This document shows, in pieces, positions 6,023 to 55,047 of a DNA stretch of 64,000 bases (the stretch's first letter is position 1; each line of letters begins with the position of its first letter). The DNA lies in the NCBI RefSeq assembly GCF_000423045.1, contig NZ_AUHF01000001.1, positions 248,001-312,000 on the forward strand, read 5' to 3'. Source of the DNA: Christiangramia portivictoriae DSM 23547 (GTDB lineage Bacteria > Bacteroidota > Bacteroidia > Flavobacteriales > Flavobacteriaceae). The notes under the pieces are model-generated. The model was not told where the DNA came from and made no database searches. It saw only the letters and a list, made by a program, of their open reading frames with translations. The position numbers were made by a program, and so were the translations under genes.

Positions 6023-6631
6023 ATGTCTTTTGAATTACCAAAATTGAAATATGCTTTTGATGCATTGGAGCCACATATAGATGCAAAAACAATGGAAATT
6101 CACCATGATAAGCATCATGCCGGTTATACTAAAAAACTGAACGATGCTATCGAAGGTACAGATATGGAAGGAAAGAATATCGAAAATATTCTTCAAAACC
6201 TTGATATGTCTAATAAAGCGGTGAGAAACAACGGTGGTGGTTTTTATAATCACAGCCTCTTCTGGGAAGTAATGTCTCCAGATGGTGGAGGAAAACCAGA
6301 AGGCGAGCTGGCTACTGCGATAGACAACGCTTTTGGTTCATTTGAGGCTTTTAAGGAAGAATTCTCTAAAGCCGCTGCCGGACAGTTTGGATCTGGATGG
6401 GCATGGCTATGTGTACATAGTGGTGGAAAAGTAGAAGTTTGTTCTACTGCGAACCAGGATAATCCAATCATGCCAGAAATTGGTTGTGGAGGAACTCCGG
6501 TTCTTGGTTTGGATGTTTGGGAGCATGCTTACTATTTGAACTACCAGAACAAGCGTCCTGAATATATCGATGCATTCTTTAACGTGATCGACTGGAAAGA
6601 AGTTTCCAGCAGATACGCAAAAGCGAAATAA
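6023..6631 (+). CDS. sodA: Superoxide dismutase, Fe/Mn family (Mn-type by signature)
   Basis: A cytoplasmic 202-residue enzyme that dismutates superoxide. The metal ligands are H27, H77, D164 and H168 (DVWEHAYY). A glutamine in the ANQD stretch (Q145) and the GGGFYNH segment point to a Mn-using or cambialistic enzyme rather than the classical Fe type, although metal use cannot be proved from sequence. It is a single-gene unit with its own promoter and a strong terminator. Confidence 0.95.
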
Positions 6632-6657
6632 TTTAGAATTGATTTTCTAAAGATTGA

Positions 6658-6684
6658 GACCGCCAACTGGCGGTCTTTTTTTTT
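6658..6684 (+). terminator. Rho-independent terminator of sodA
   Basis: The stem is GACCGCC / GGCGGTC (7 bp, AACT loop), followed by nine T. Confidence 0.9.
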
Positions 6685-6697
6685 GAATTGTATGCAT

Positions 6698-6768
6698 AAA
6701 AAAAGGTGGATAAAGATCCACCTTTTTTTGCCCCAAATCTACCATGAACTTAACCTACTTATGCTATG
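6698..6768 (-). ncRNA. Candidate small RNA, tandem copy A
   Basis: Read leftward, this unit has a -7 box TATCTTTA (6775-6782), then a 40-base block (6730-6769) beginning CCATAGCATAAG, and ends in a terminator hairpin AAAAAAAGGTGGAT / ATCCACCTTTTTTT (6698-6729). The 40-base block is identical in copy B and differs at one base in copy C, while the sequence between copies is much more diverged. The predicted start of transcription falls at the first bases of the block. CCAT at the 5' end can pair with ATGG near the middle, giving a short stem ahead of the terminator. Function is unknown. A match to the Rfam Flavo-1 motif is worth testing. Confidence 0.6.
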
Positions 6769-6910
6769 GTGATATAAAGATAATGTCTTAGATCGTTTTC
6801 TCTCGAACTTTTGGATGAAGTACCTGAAAATTAGATGAGTAGCTTAAAAATACTGATTGTTTAATTAAAATATTTTAGTCTTAAACAATATAAATTTGAA
6901 TTATATGAAT

Positions 6911-6981
6911 AAAAAAAGGCGGATCAAGATCCACCTCTTTTTGCCCCAAATCTACCATGAACTTAACCTACTTATGCTATG
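6911..6981 (-). ncRNA. Candidate small RNA, tandem copy B
   Basis: Same design as copy A: -7 box TATATTTA (6988-6995), five-base gap, 40-base conserved block (6943-6982), terminator hairpin (6911-6942). The hairpin has a T-to-C change in the right arm that replaces a Watson-Crick pair with a G-U pair in the leftward RNA, so pairing survives. CTACCAT and ATGGTAG flank the block, making the longest outer stem of the three copies (7 bp). Confidence 0.6.
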
Positions 6982-7110
6982 GTAGTATAAATATAAAACG
7001 AATGTCTATGGCAAAATAGATTTTTGGATGAACTACCTGAAAATTAGTTAACCGGTTTAGAATAAGATATTTAATTTTCAGGTGTTAGCAATTATTTCTG
7101 AACCGGAAAT

Positions 7111-7182
7111 AAAAAAAGGCGGAATGAATCCACCTTTTTTTGCCCCAAATCTACCATGAACTTAACCTACTTATGTTATGGC
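7111..7182 (-). ncRNA. Candidate small RNA, tandem copy C
   Basis: The most upstream copy in the direction of transcription and the one with the best promoter. The 40-base block (7142-7181) differs from copies A and B by one base. The terminator arms (GGTGGA / TCCGCC with flanking A and T runs, 7111-7141) still pair although loop bases have changed. Conserved structure with changed sequence supports an RNA product rather than a DNA site alone. Confidence 0.6.
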
Positions 7183-7188
7183 ATGGTA

Positions 7189-7219
7189 CTAATGTAGACA
7201 GATAAAATCGAGTCGCAAA
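7189..7219 (-). promoter_or_regulatory. Promoter of small RNA copy C
   Basis: TTTG (7216-7219), 19 bases, then TACATTAG (7189-7196), one mismatch from TAnnTTTG. Copies A and B keep the -7 box but have a poorer -33 box. Confidence 0.62.
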
Positions 7220-7261
7220 CATTATTAGACCAAATGCTTATTTAATAGTTAAAAGACCAAT

Positions 7262-9160
7262 TTAATATGCTCTGTCTTTATTTCCTTCATAGAAATTTAT
7301 AAAGGCTCGGTTTACCACCCGGTTCCCGCCAGCTGTGGGATAATCACCAGTAAAGTACCAGTCTCCCAGGTTTTTAGGACAGGCTTTATGTAGGTTTTCT
7401 ACCGTTTGATAAATGATCTTGACGTCAGCATTTACATCTGTATCGCATAATAGTTCAGATATTTTATCTGAAATCTGTTCATTGGTAAATGGATCGTACA
7501 TTTCCTTTACAAAATTCTGTACATCAGAGTCATCCAGCTCTAGCTGTTGTTTACACTTCTTATACACCTTCTCCACGATCTCATACTGGCCAGTTTCCTT
7601 TAGCAATTCCAATGCCGCTCTAAAAGCAACGAGATCTTCCAGTCTGGCCATATCAATACCATAACAATCTGGATATCGTATTTGAGGAGCAGAAGAAACC
7701 ACGACGATCTTCTTCGGTTTAAGCCTGTCCATCATTTTAATGATGCTTTTCTTCAGCGTAGTTCCGCGAACAATACTATCATCGATGATGACCAGGTTAT
7801 CGTCGGGTTTTACCACGCCGTAGGTGACATCATAAACATGGGCCACGAGGTCATCTCTGCTGCTGTCTTCAGTAATAAAGGTTCGTAATTTTACATCCTT
7901 GATCGCGATCTTTTCAGTTCTTAACCTGTGCGACAAAATTTCCTGCAGCCTGGCGTCAGTTAGAGTTTCCTTTTCCTCAAGGATGGCTTCATTCTTCTGT
8001 TTGTTGAGCTCATCCTGTGCTGCTTCCACCATTCCGTAGAAAGATGTTTCCGCAGTATTAGGAATAAAAGAGAAAACCGTTTTCAGGGTGTCATGTTCAA
8101 TGCTTTTCAATACATCTGGCATAAGCAGTCTTCCCAGCATTTTGCGCTCTTCATAGATTTCAGCGTCACTACCACGAGAAAAGTAGATCCTCTCGAAAGA
8201 GCAGGCTTTGCGTTCCAGTGGTTTGATGATTTCAGTGATCTTTACATCCCCGCTTTTTTTAGTTATGATCGCGTTACCCGGAGGTAATTCATGAACATCC
8301 TTAAAATCTACATTGAAGACGGTTTGTATCACCGGCCTTTCTGAAGCGACCACCACCACTTCATCATCCTTGTAATAATAAGCGGGACGAATTCCTGCAG
8401 GATCACGAAGTACAAAGGAGTCACCGTGACCAATCATTCCTGCCATGGCATAACCACCATCCCAGTTCTTACTGGATTTTTTCAGGATCTTCGCCACATC
8501 AAGCTGTTCTGCAATATGTGGAGAGGCCTGTTTTTTGGAAAAGCCTTCTTTCTTCAGCTTTTTATATAATTTTCTTACTTCAGAATCCAGGAAATGACCA
8601 ATCTTTTCCATCACCGTCACAGTGTCTGCACGTTCTTTAGGGTGTTGTCCAAGTTCAACCAGGTTATTGAATAACTGGTTTACGTTGGTCATATTGAAAT
8701 TTCCTGCCACTATAAGATTACGGTGCATCCAGTTATTCTGTCTCAGGAATGGATGTACGCTTTCTATACTATTCTTTCCAAAGGTTCCGTAGCGAACATG
8801 GCCAAGGAAAACTTCGCCCAGGTAGGGGATATATCTCTTCTGAAGCTCAGTATCATCTGCATATTCGGGATTCGCCAGGATCTCATCGTTAATCCTTTGA
8901 TTGATCTGTTCAAAAATATCCTGAATTGGCTGTGCAGCATTAGATCTTACGCGACTAATGTAGCGCTCACCCGGTGCTGTATTCAATTTGATACTGGCAA
9001 AACCTGCACCATCCTGACCACGGTTGTGCTGTTTCTCCATAAGCAGGTACATTTTGTTTACACCATAGAAGGCGGTACCGTACTTCTTTTTATAGTAATC
9101 TAATGGTTTAAGAAGCCTTATCTGTGCAATTCCACATTCGTGTTTGATAGCGTCACTCAT
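7262..9160 (-). CDS. purF: Amidophosphoribosyltransferase (PurF-type, long form)
   Basis: First step of de novo purine synthesis: PRPP plus glutamine gives phosphoribosylamine. The N-terminus has the class-II glutaminase start ECGIAQIRL, whose Cys9 would become the nucleophile after trimming, with the QHNRGQDGAG and GHVRYGT segments. The middle holds the phosphoribosyltransferase PRPP loop VIIDDSIVRGTTL. At 632 residues it exceeds the roughly 500 of E. coli PurF, with additions in and after the transferase half, a long form seen in Bacteroidetes. It stands next to the purN operon, but a terminator at 9202-9226 lies between them, so it probably has its own promoter, which I could not place. 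Confidence 0.88.
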   Translation of the reverse strand: MSDAIKHECGIAQIRLLKPLDYYKKKYGTAFYGVNKMYLLMEKQHNRGQDGAGFASIKLNTAPGERYISRVRSNAAQPIQDIFEQINQRINDEILANPEYADDTELQKRYIPYLGEVFLGHVRYGTFGKNSIESVHPFLRQNNWMHRNLIVAGNFNMTNVNQLFNNLVELGQHPKERADTVTVMEKIGHFLDSEVRKLYKKLKKEGFSKKQASPHIAEQLDVAKILKKSSKNWDGGYAMAGMIGHGDSFVLRDPAGIRPAYYYKDDEVVVVASERPVIQTVFNVDFKDVHELPPGNAIITKKSGDVKITEIIKPLERKACSFERIYFSRGSDAEIYEERKMLGRLLMPDVLKSIEHDTLKTVFSFIPNTAETSFYGMVEAAQDELNKQKNEAILEEKETLTDARLQEILSHRLRTEKIAIKDVKLRTFITEDSSRDDLVAHVYDVTYGVVKPDDNLVIIDDSIVRGTTLKKSIIKMMDRLKPKKIVVVSSAPQIRYPDCYGIDMARLEDLVAFRAALELLKETGQYEIVEKVYKKCKQQLELDDSDVQNFVKEMYDPFTNEQISDKISELLCDTDVNADVKIIYQTVENLHKACPKNLGDWYFTGDYPTAGGNRVVNRAFINFYEGNKDRAY

Positions 9161-52403: not shown

Positions 52404-54098
52404 TTAGAATCTGTCATTAAGGTCTTTGAATTCTCCTTCAAGAGCAGCACCATCATCAACTTTTACTGTTCCTCCAACATAGATCTTTGAACCTTCACCA
52501 ACAAATTCCAGCTTTCCATTGCTCTGGATATTCAGGTCTCCGTGAATTTCAACCAGTCCGTTTACTCTAAGTGTACTTCCCGAAGTGATCGTAAGATTTT
52601 CAGCAGATCTGTTATTACCAAGATACATAGCACCGGAAACATTCATTTCTCCGCCACTACTTAGATTAGCACTTTTTTCAATGAACATGGTTCCGCAGAA
52701 ATTAAGCGTACCATTAACATTTAGATTTTTTACGTTCATAACTCCGGAGTATGACTCTGAAGCAGAAGGCGTGATGGTAAGATTTTTGTCTCCGTCAAAT
52801 ACCGGGTAATCTGAACAGCTTAGAAATTCTTCCGGGCTATTGTTCGGAGTATCTTCCGCAGAAATGATACGAAGAATTTTCAAACCTTTTCCAGAAGCAA
52901 CATAAATATATTCCCCTTTCGCCTGTACGAAGTTGGCACTACCTTCAATTTCTGCTATCCCTTCAGCAAGAGGATTTAAATCCTCACCAAGCTTTAAGAT
53001 ATCAAGTCCTGCACCTCCATTAGCCATATATACAAAATTTCCATCAGTAGAAACTGCGTTAGTCACAGCATCTTCAATAGAAACAGTAGCAGCATCGGGA
53101 TGCATTTGAAGTGGGAGGTTGCCTACTTTGGAATTCGTCTCAAAACTATAGATCCCGGCACCATCTGTACCTTCAGAAACTAGGATATTGTCTCCATACC
53201 AGGCAATCGTTCTTTTTGATTCTGCAGTTAATGGAGCGGTGCTTATTTGAGAATCAAGCACAAACCCATCAGCAACGTTGAAGTTCATGAGTCCGTCAAC
53301 GCCACTTAAAACAGCCAACGTGTTGTTTTTGAGTGCAGCATATCTAAGGTCTCCAATTTCTTCTGTAGAGATTCCTTCAAAAGCAGTAATCATTCCAGGA
53401 TATTCAAATCTTGTGATCGCACCTGCATCTCCACTAATTGCGATAGCTTCGCCATCTATAGGCAGCACATGAACACCTGCATTTCCAGAATTCCCGAAAT
53501 CAAGATTATAGTTAACTTCTACTCGAATGTCATCTACTTCCTGAACGAGAGTGGAAGGTAAATTACCGTTTTCAAGGTTGAAATACGCCATCATCGTGCG
53601 ATTTCCTGTTCCGCGATTCTCTTTTGCTGAAGCCCCAGTTAGTACAAGAACATTATTACTATCTACAAATAATGAGTTGATATCTGCAATCGTAGTGGTC
53701 ATTCTATTAACTAAAACAGGATTGTATTTGTCCTGGATGTCGATTACATCTACAGCTCCAAGATAAGTTGCGCCTTCTTTGTTATAAGAAACATAGGCGA
53801 AATTACCTTTTACATCTACATGTGTAGCTCTTAATTTTACACCATCAACTTCAGGAGCTTCCAGCGAAGCGATCTGCTCGATACCAAAAACGGTAGAAGC
53901 ATCTGAATTTCTATTGTTGCTAACAGAGGCAAAACCAATAACACCAGTTTCGTTAAAATTGATCGCGGAGCTAAGTTCTGAAGCATCTGCAATACTGAAA
54001 TCAGATTCCTGAGAAGGTTCGTCTGTAATACTGCTCTTTTCGCAGGATGCAAATAATAGGATAGCACTTAGGCTTAATCCGAATAGTCTTTTATTCAT
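52404..54098 (-). CDS. LVIVD beta-propeller lipoprotein with C-terminal beta-helix module
   Basis: A 564-residue exported lipoprotein: lipobox LFASC (Cys19), then LVIVD-type propeller repeats up to about residue 420 (for example KGNFAYVSYNKEG, DVIDIQDKYNPVLV, VYMANGGAGLDI), and a separate C-terminal module (428-564) of short alternating beta units resembling bactofilin/right-handed beta-helix proteins. That module begins CSDYPVFDGD and has a second Cys exactly 40 residues later (NFCG). The same module occurs in the next gene. Ligand and partner are unknown. Confidence 0.75.
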   Translation of the reverse strand: MNKRLFGLSLSAILLFASCEKSSITDEPSQESDFSIADASELSSAINFNETGVIGFASVSNNRNSDASTVFGIEQIASLEAPEVDGVKLRATHVDVKGNFAYVSYNKEGATYLGAVDVIDIQDKYNPVLVNRMTTTIADINSLFVDSNNVLVLTGASAKENRGTGNRTMMAYFNLENGNLPSTLVQEVDDIRVEVNYNLDFGNSGNAGVHVLPIDGEAIAISGDAGAITRFEYPGMITAFEGISTEEIGDLRYAALKNNTLAVLSGVDGLMNFNVADGFVLDSQISTAPLTAESKRTIAWYGDNILVSEGTDGAGIYSFETNSKVGNLPLQMHPDAATVSIEDAVTNAVSTDGNFVYMANGGAGLDILKLGEDLNPLAEGIAEIEGSANFVQAKGEYIYVASGKGLKILRIISAEDTPNNSPEEFLSCSDYPVFDGDKNLTITPSASESYSGVMNVKNLNVNGTLNFCGTMFIEKSANLSSGGEMNVSGAMYLGNNRSAENLTITSGSTLRVNGLVEIHGDLNIQSNGKLEFVGEGSKIYVGGTVKVDDGAALEGEFKDLNDRF

Positions 54099-54233
54099 GG
54101 TAAATAGGTTAGTTAAAGTATTTGGGCAGGTAAAAATAGTAATTAAACCGAGTTATAAAAACCAAACTAGTTGAACTACAGGCTTTTTCGATAAAGTGTA
54201 AGAATTAACGGATAAGAAATTACTTATAATGAA

Positions 54234-54283: not shown

Positions 54284-54919
54284 CTAGTGTTCGTGGTCTT
54301 CCTCACCTTCGTAGGTATTGTACATACCGTAGATAAAGGAGTAATCGGCAGTTCTAATATCTCCCATCACCCATAACCAGTTGTGCTCCAAATCATCATT
54401 AAGGAACTGTAGGGTTGCTCCGGTATTTAGAATCAAATCACCTGTAACTATAAGGGCTCCGTTTATATTGAAATGCCCTCCATAGTTAATCACAAGATCT
54501 TTAGGTTCTTCTTCAGATCCTATAATAGCAAGACCAACAGTAGTCATCTCACCGTTACGTCTAATAACAGTATTTTTTTCTGTTTCAATCTCACCACAAA
54601 TATTCAGTTCACCGGCAACACGAAGATTTTCCAGATGAGTGTGATCACTGAAGTCCATAACGTCACCTTTGCCAACATGAAGATCCTTTGGACCGTCATA
54701 GATTGGGAAAGTATCACAATCCTCGAAACCGTTCTTTAGGAATACCGGCTCATGTATACCATTCAGGAATACTGGCTCATGGATTTTAGTTACAGCAGTT
54801 TTAGACTCTTTTACCGCGGAATTAGTTTCTGAAGTAATATCCTCAGAAACAGCATCGGTCTCACACCCGGTTAGGAATAGGCCAAGTCCTAAGCCGAGAA
54901 AAAGTAATTTTTTGTTCAT
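54284..54919 (-). CDS. Lipoprotein with cysteine-paired beta-helix module
   Basis: A 211-residue exported lipoprotein (lipobox LFLTGC, Cys19). A short linker has IHEPVFL repeated twice in tandem (nine residues apart, 46-61). Then comes a module (68-211) aligned with the end of the LVIVD protein: DCDTFPIYDGP opens it, C108 follows C68 by exactly 40 residues, and the strands GELNICGEI, RRNGEMTTVG, DLVINYGG and ALIVTGDLILNTGATLQF correspond one to one. The ATG at 54919 is chosen for its lipobox. Function unknown. Confidence 0.75.
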   Translation of the reverse strand: MNKKLLFLGLGLGLFLTGCETDAVSEDITSETNSAVKESKTAVTKIHEPVFLNGIHEPVFLKNGFEDCDTFPIYDGPKDLHVGKGDVMDFSDHTHLENLRVAGELNICGEIETEKNTVIRRNGEMTTVGLAIIGSEEEPKDLVINYGGHFNINGALIVTGDLILNTGATLQFLNDDLEHNWLWVMGDIRTADYSFIYGMYNTYEGEEDHEH

Positions 54920-55047
54920 GATAATTTTTGGTTTAAAAAGATTTGGTGGAGTAAAAGTAATATATAAGATGATAATAGCGTAAATAAATCGCTGAAAAGT
55001 TTGCTGCACAGGGATTTATAAATCGCTATGTAAGAAAAAACCTATAA

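Follow-up and report, generated by a model that had tools for sequence, protein, structure and literature searches.

Three tandem direct copies of a short conserved element were found on the minus strand of the window (the whole 64,000-nucleotide stretch of the Christiangramia portivictoriae DSM 23547 genome analyzed here) at positions 6698-7182, between two genes that we take to be purF and sodA from their sequences. The sequence is best explained if every copy encodes a non-coding RNA of 72-73 nt, with a 5' hairpin, a single-stranded AGAUUUGGGGC and an intrinsic terminator, in that order. We lean towards reading the array as a set of sibling regulatory RNAs whose transcription would be driven by a LytTR regulator and which would act by base-pairing in trans. 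The elements of the array and its neighbors are as follows.

6023..6631, plus strand: sodA, superoxide dismutase, convergent conserved neighbor
6656..6677, plus strand: terminator of sodA
6698..6770, minus strand: sRNA copy A (model match and folding), predicted start 6770; 5' hairpin 6741-6770, single-stranded AGATTTGGGGC 6730-6740, terminator 6698-6729
6775..6782, minus strand: -7 box of copy A, TATCTTTA, 4 bases upstream of the first conserved base
6809..6845, minus strand: 20-bp-period direct repeat of copy A, putative LytTR site
6911..6983, minus strand: sRNA copy B (model match and folding), predicted start 6983; hairpin 6954-6983, linker 6943-6953, terminator 6911-6942
6988..6995, minus strand: -7 box of copy B, TATATTTA
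7022..7058, minus strand: direct repeat of copy B, putative LytTR site
7111..7182, minus strand: sRNA copy C, nearest purF, first conserved base 7182; hairpin 7153-7182, linker 7142-7152, terminator 7111-7141
7189..7196, minus strand: -7 box of copy C, TACATTAG, 2 bases farther upstream than in A and B
7223..7259, minus strand: direct repeat of copy C, putative LytTR site, which stops 3 bases short of the stop codon of purF
7262..9160, minus strand: purF, amidophosphoribosyltransferase, upstream conserved neighbor on the sRNA strand

The three-copy array

A preliminary description of this DNA had proposed three leftward tandem copies, and the model matches at 6698-6770, 6911-6983 and 7111-7182 confirmed them, with start-to-start distances of 213 and 199 bases. 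Alignment bore out its further statement that the inner block is identical in two copies and one base off in the third, the single difference being an A-to-G change in copy B, while the spacers have drifted. The hairpin and T-run closing every copy and the -7 box before each were found as described, and the fixed promoter distance, the hairpin, the terminator and the tandem siblings supported the proposed duplicated leftward sRNA gene. Each of the three boxes carries 5 of the 6 fixed bases of TAnnTTTG. Since the box of copy C lies 2 bases farther upstream, its start would be 7184 by the box rule; the 5' stem of this copy has ACAT in place of GCAT. The spacer segment CTACCTGAAAATTAG, noted earlier as common to copies A and B and taken as a relic of unequal duplication, is indeed shared, but it is more than a relic; it forms part of a 20-bp-spaced repeat found upstream of most copies in the family. 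Searches of the genome of this strain returned no copies beyond the three.

Folding and conservation of the RNA

In the sense orientation the RNA reads (A/G)CCAUARCAUAAGUAGGUUAAGUUCAUGGU for the 5' hairpin, followed by the single-stranded AGAUUUGGGGC and an A-rich, U-tailed terminator. The folding z-scores of the three copies were -4.12, -4.29 and -4.30, and none of 200 shuffles was as good for any copy. Among 25 sequences, the pairing of the terminator is maintained by two-sided changes at 4 pairs and in 23 cells, values that were reached by 4 of 500 shuffles for the pairs and by 0 of 500 for the cells; further pair types in the terminator were not above shuffles (462/500). Sliding the terminator partner reduced the pairing from 98.8% to at most 56.8%. 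The near-invariant 5' half showed no compensatory changes in the 25 sequences, only G-U-compatible ones, and most of the diverged 5' hairpin variants listed still fold. The linker is near-invariant and predicted to be unpaired.

The identity between loci of other genera was 0.92 for the loop and linker, 0.90 for the 5' stem, 0.64 for the -7 box and 0.34 for the spacer, and within the genus of the window it was 1.00, 0.95 and 0.42 for the loop and linker, the 5' stem and the spacer, respectively; the loop and linker values are biased upward because the 202 copies compared were picked by part of these segments. The siblings have diverged recurrently. ACAT and GCAT distinguish them within the genus, with one exception (L014), and UUCAUGG versus UUUAUGG separates first from second copies in many genera. 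In G108, a third, diverged paralogue (AUCAUGACAUAAGUAGGUUAAGUUUAUGUUUAGAUUUGGGAAC) with another terminator follows right after the second copy (L047, around 1864, minus strand).

A peptide encoded in the block (ATG GTA GAT TTG GGG CAA ...) was considered and rejected, as A-tract indels and an extra A in GGTAAGATTTGGGG break the frame across copies and genera. The block could also be a DNA-level element, an operator or a terminator array after purF, that makes no functional RNA. Its position just after the purF stop codon fits this, as does the core itself, which barely varies and so shows no covariation. Yet the order of promoter, core and terminator is the same in the copies read, the -7 box keeps a constant spacing to the first conserved base, and one copy (L132) has neither purF nor sodA within 13 kb. 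The preliminary description had named a block conserved only as a DNA site, with no covarying stem, as the outcome that would speak against an RNA, whereas the terminator stem covaries. A DNA-level element is thus highly improbable. The copies combine a promoter of their own, a covarying terminator and a conserved non-coding core, the features of an intrinsically terminated sRNA gene.

Distribution in the Flavobacteriaceae

The sRNA was present in all 24 genomes of the genus, where 78 copies were counted in 24 loci, with 2-5 copies per locus and the exact 36-nt core in 70 of the 78. With one genome per genus, 121 of 149 genomes of the family were positive (blastn, E <= 0.001), or 107 of 125 among the good assemblies; carriers among the matches listed include Flavobacterium, Aquimarina, Winogradskyella, Salegentibacter and Kordia. 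Samples of the order (246 genomes) and of the class (295 genomes) were searched with a covariance model of 25 sequences under stricter filters, at which weak matches are lost, and all matches with E < 1e-10 in both samples came from the same family. Twenty-four weaker hits in the class were fetched and rejected. These hits are terminators and resemble the 30-nt core no more than random sequence does, with 11-16 mismatches in the match zone compared with a mean of 14.5 and a minimum of 11 in random 300-mers; L107 and L111 have nothing in common with the core but TAGGTTAAG. Viral contigs were searched with a 21-base core pattern, and none matched. The exact sRNA core was also seen in a MAG labeled Lentimicrobium (L269), outside the family, which is likely a case of binning contamination.

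At 73 of the 82 loci, purF and sodA are both present within flanks of about 1.5 kb, and one of them is found at the remaining 9, several of which stop at a contig edge. Where the two genes lie apart (L127 and L128 in G161; L129 and L130 in G030), both genes still have sRNA copies next to them, so the array was probably tandem before purF and sodA became separated.

Promoters and 20-bp direct repeats

The flavobacterial -7 box spans -12 to -5, as given in an excerpt of PMC9723704. In 183 of 202 copies, a box with five or all six of the fixed bases stands no more than 2 bases away from its usual place, and in 158 of 202 it sits at the commonest offset, which puts +1 at the first conserved base. 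TTG at the -33 place occurs in 64 of the 202 copies, more commonly than at most other offsets, so that about a third of the promoters may have a -33 box and about two thirds would be without one.

The -7 box is preceded by direct repeats with a unit like GCATTTCATCTAAAA and a period of exactly 20 bp, the unit boundaries being set from sequence. For a one-unit profile the score was 8.2 in place, 3.3 when shifted upstream by exactly 20 bp, and -2.6 or less at all other offsets. The double-repeat score at the fixed offset had a median of 23.1, with a quarter of the copies at 4.1 or below, and some late tandem copies are without the double repeat. In G069, TGCATTTCATCTAAAAAA occurs twice, 20 bp apart, before the sRNA, and the two units are identical over 18 bases. 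According to the part of PMC4847170 that deals with such sites, LytTR regulators bind two repeats of 9-11 nt with spacers of 11-13 nt, and YpdB of E. coli binds GGCATTTCAT repeats. The paired-repeat layout of a LytTR-controlled promoter was thus found here, with 20 bp as the lower limit of that range (9 + 11), and the upstream repeats resemble LytTR response-regulator sites.

A candidate LytTR regulator

Judging by these repeats, the array may be driven by a LytTR-type regulator. The genome of this strain has 8 LytTR matches, and the choice among them was guided by small genomes that carry the sRNA. In three of the nine such genomes searched (G069, G115 and G160), there is a single LytTR gene, and it is the orthologue of the gene that sits between priA and rpsF-rpsR-rplI in this strain (the flank in G115 reached priA only); G088 and G162, which are 88% and 86% complete, have the sRNA and no LytTR match. 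The gene at L143:5883-6611 has orthologues in G066, G069, G083, G115, G122, G160 and G043, which adjoin priA and, as far as the flank extended, rpsF-rpsR-rplI, even in genomes of 1.6-2.3 Mb. No kinase gene was seen next to it at L143.

At E < 1e-55, a cut-off chosen after the E-values were seen, the priA-rpsF LytTR was found in 113 of 121 sRNA-positive genomes versus 2 of 28 negative ones (Fisher p ~8e-20, from counts that ignore shared descent). At the search's own cut-off of 1e-38, the counts were 117/121 and 13/28, which are less specific because the looser value admits other LytTRs. For comparison, another LytTR of the same genome (E <= 1e-60) was present in 56 of 121 positive versus 5 of 28 negative genomes. 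The strict cut-off is passed by two negatives, G033 and G135 (64% complete). Synteny was read for three negatives fetched from below it: G025 and G056 have other LytTRs, and G159 has a true syntenic orthologue. The match in G070 has the coordinates of another LytTR. Among the positives, G043, G066, G122 and G160 carry syntenic orthologues weaker than 1e-55, and the four without an orthologue (G088, G102, G111 and G162) are all drafts, 81-88% complete.

A LytTR of a phosphorelay linked to H-NOX and FIST, of the nitric-oxide type, was favored at first as the regulator, in which case the RNAs would answer to NO. In G161, the sRNA pair beside sodA is directly preceded by genes for H-NOX, a kinase and this LytTR, and the genome of this strain has a like operon with FIST on contig C3. 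This adjacency was seen at one locus only (L128), only 56 of the 121 sRNA-positive genomes have the H-NOX-linked LytTR and 51 have H-NOX, and genomes without that LytTR, such as G029 (L043), keep the repeats. The idea was dropped on these presence tables and is now considered very unlikely. The operon of this strain (L138:6297-12828) encodes a receiver, H-NOX, a PAS kinase, FIST, a kinase, an Hpt-like protein and a LytTR, a putative nitric-oxide phosphorelay; the Hpt-like match is below the curated cut-off.

Taken with the priA-rpsF LytTR as the most likely regulator, the comparison suggests the following course of events. The regulator would bind two repeats 20 bp apart, about 40-75 bp before the start, and would help promoters that mostly have no -33 box. 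Transcription would begin on the conserved (A/G)CCAUA or no more than two bases from it and would end at the intrinsic terminator, and the tandem copies would serve as sibling sRNAs that raise the dosage.

Mode of action and possible targets

The mode of action is the least secure part of this reading. The RNAs probably act by base-pairing, the leading mechanism because of the analogy with known Bacteroidota sRNAs, as far as these are described in excerpts of PMC7366714 and PMC11697453. Pairing in trans would use the near-invariant apical loop (GUAGGUUAAG), UUYAUGGUA and the single-stranded AGAUUUGGGGC, and might take place over translation starts, a weakly supported placement. Among 438 5' regions in 547 kb of the genome of this strain, no 7-mer complementary to the sRNA was enriched, so many strong targets in that sixth of the genome are unlikely. 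Ranking by RNAduplex gave plausible but unselective matches; 4 of 30 shuffles reached the best energy, and the excess of duplex energy over shuffles arises partly because CAU of the RNA faces AUG. Start-codon targeting across the genome was rejected on these two results.

A second promoter of similar design was found elsewhere in the window.

54165..54221, minus strand: promoter with three repeats at 20-bp spacing, before the lipoprotein gene 52404-54098

The repeats are visible by eye in 11 of 14 orthologous leaders. The promoter scan scored 21.5 here and 21.7 at a probably spurious intragenic hit (L141), and because the two score alike the case for the lipoprotein promoter is its conservation in orthologues, to which the scan adds nothing. 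The sRNA linker is complementary to CCCAAAT, which is present in 9 of 14 lipoprotein leaders (CCAAAT in 11 of 14), and TACCATGAA over the start codon in 4 of 14 only. With both motifs in its leader, the lipoprotein gene is tentatively proposed as a target. Its product has a match to the LVIVD repeat, and the adjacent gene at 54284-55009 (minus strand) encodes another putative lipoprotein with a related C-terminal part.

Some RNAs, such as 6S and CsrB, titrate or sequester a protein. An RNA acting mainly in this way, by binding a protein or the ribosome and not by pairing with mRNAs, would account for a near-total invariance over more than 30 nt, which exceeds the usual need of a seed, for the dosage given by tandem copies and for the lack of target k-mer enrichment; the likely regulator gene also adjoins rpsF-rpsR-rplI. 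The invariance fits pairing with many targets too, though, no known binding motif was recognized in the RNA, and there is no candidate protein, RRM_1, the family searched, being found in 0 of 100 genomes. We regard protein or ribosome binding as the main mode of action as unlikely, while giving it real weight as the main rival, and continue to prefer base-pairing. A wider version of the pairing model is doubtful, though somewhat less so: a core Flavobacteriaceae circuit in which the orphan LytTR beside rpsF-rpsR-rplI would drive near-invariant tandem sRNAs that reset the translation of many envelope or metabolic mRNAs, with no RRM partner.

Comparison with known systems

The preliminary description had recognized no family, and the Rfam 15 scan agreed with it, as the whole window was without a match at the gathering thresholds. 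Its one candidate, Flavo-1 (which we take to be RF01705), was not borne out, since no Rfam search returned it at the gathering threshold or at E up to 10. FopS, the closest described family found in the phylum, reached at best 20.9 bits against a curated cut-off of 56.

The RNA might be a Flavobacteriaceae branch of the Bacteroides FopS/GibS family. UUCAUGG and UAGAUUU, with a 3-base gap, are common to the RF04319 consensus and the window RNA and could in both lie over a start region, and the three copies score 20.9, 18.3 and 17.0 bits. Both kinds are short RNAs of Bacteroidota with an intrinsic terminator, and FopS is likewise multicopy and pairs near start codons, as described in excerpts of PMC11697453 and PMC7366714. 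These scores are far under the cut-off, and the shared stretch is within chance: an equal alignment was obtained in 2690 of 20000 shuffles of the window RNA and in 2456 of 20000 shuffles of FopS. No intermediates were found among the 295 genomes of the class. The 5' end of FopS, which carries the R1 seed, is single-stranded according to the excerpt of PMC11697453, whereas a 5' hairpin is predicted in all three copies here. The partner of FopS, RbpB, is an RRM-1 protein, and PF00076 was found in 0 of 100 family genomes, while the control matches include a Bacteroides. Membership thus fails on score, structure and partner; the likeness is a resemblance only, and common descent is improbable. The window RNA differs further in its tandem arrangement at one mostly syntenic locus and in its LytTR-like repeats.

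Rfp18 of Flavobacterium psychrophilum is, like the window RNA, a conserved sRNA of the same bacterial family; as described in an excerpt of PMC9723704, it pairs through a third stem-loop, whereas the window RNA has two, and the two are set apart on this description. The site of E. coli YpdB in PyhjX (excerpt of PMC4847170) resembles the repeats of the window in consisting of direct repeats with GCATTTCAT. The repeats here have a period of 20 bp and precede an sRNA, not yhjX. The period of the YpdB repeats is 21 bp.

The Qrr RNAs are tandem or sibling sRNAs under a response regulator. As with these, near-identical RNAs each have their own putative activator site in the window, but the repeats are of the LytTR type, there is no sigma-54 promoter, and the bacteria are others. 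No description of this RNA was found in the open-access literature searched. Because it is present nearly letter for letter in 121 of 149 sampled genera, absent from Rfam 15 and undescribed in the open-access papers searched, it should have a central role, and as a possible new control RNA of the whole family it is a good candidate. Since there is a named candidate regulator and the address between purF and sodA is mostly fixed, its expression, regulator and targets lend themselves to direct tests. Set against the systems above, the RNA is probably a new family of a known kind, that of sibling sRNAs with intrinsic terminators, here probably controlled by a response regulator.
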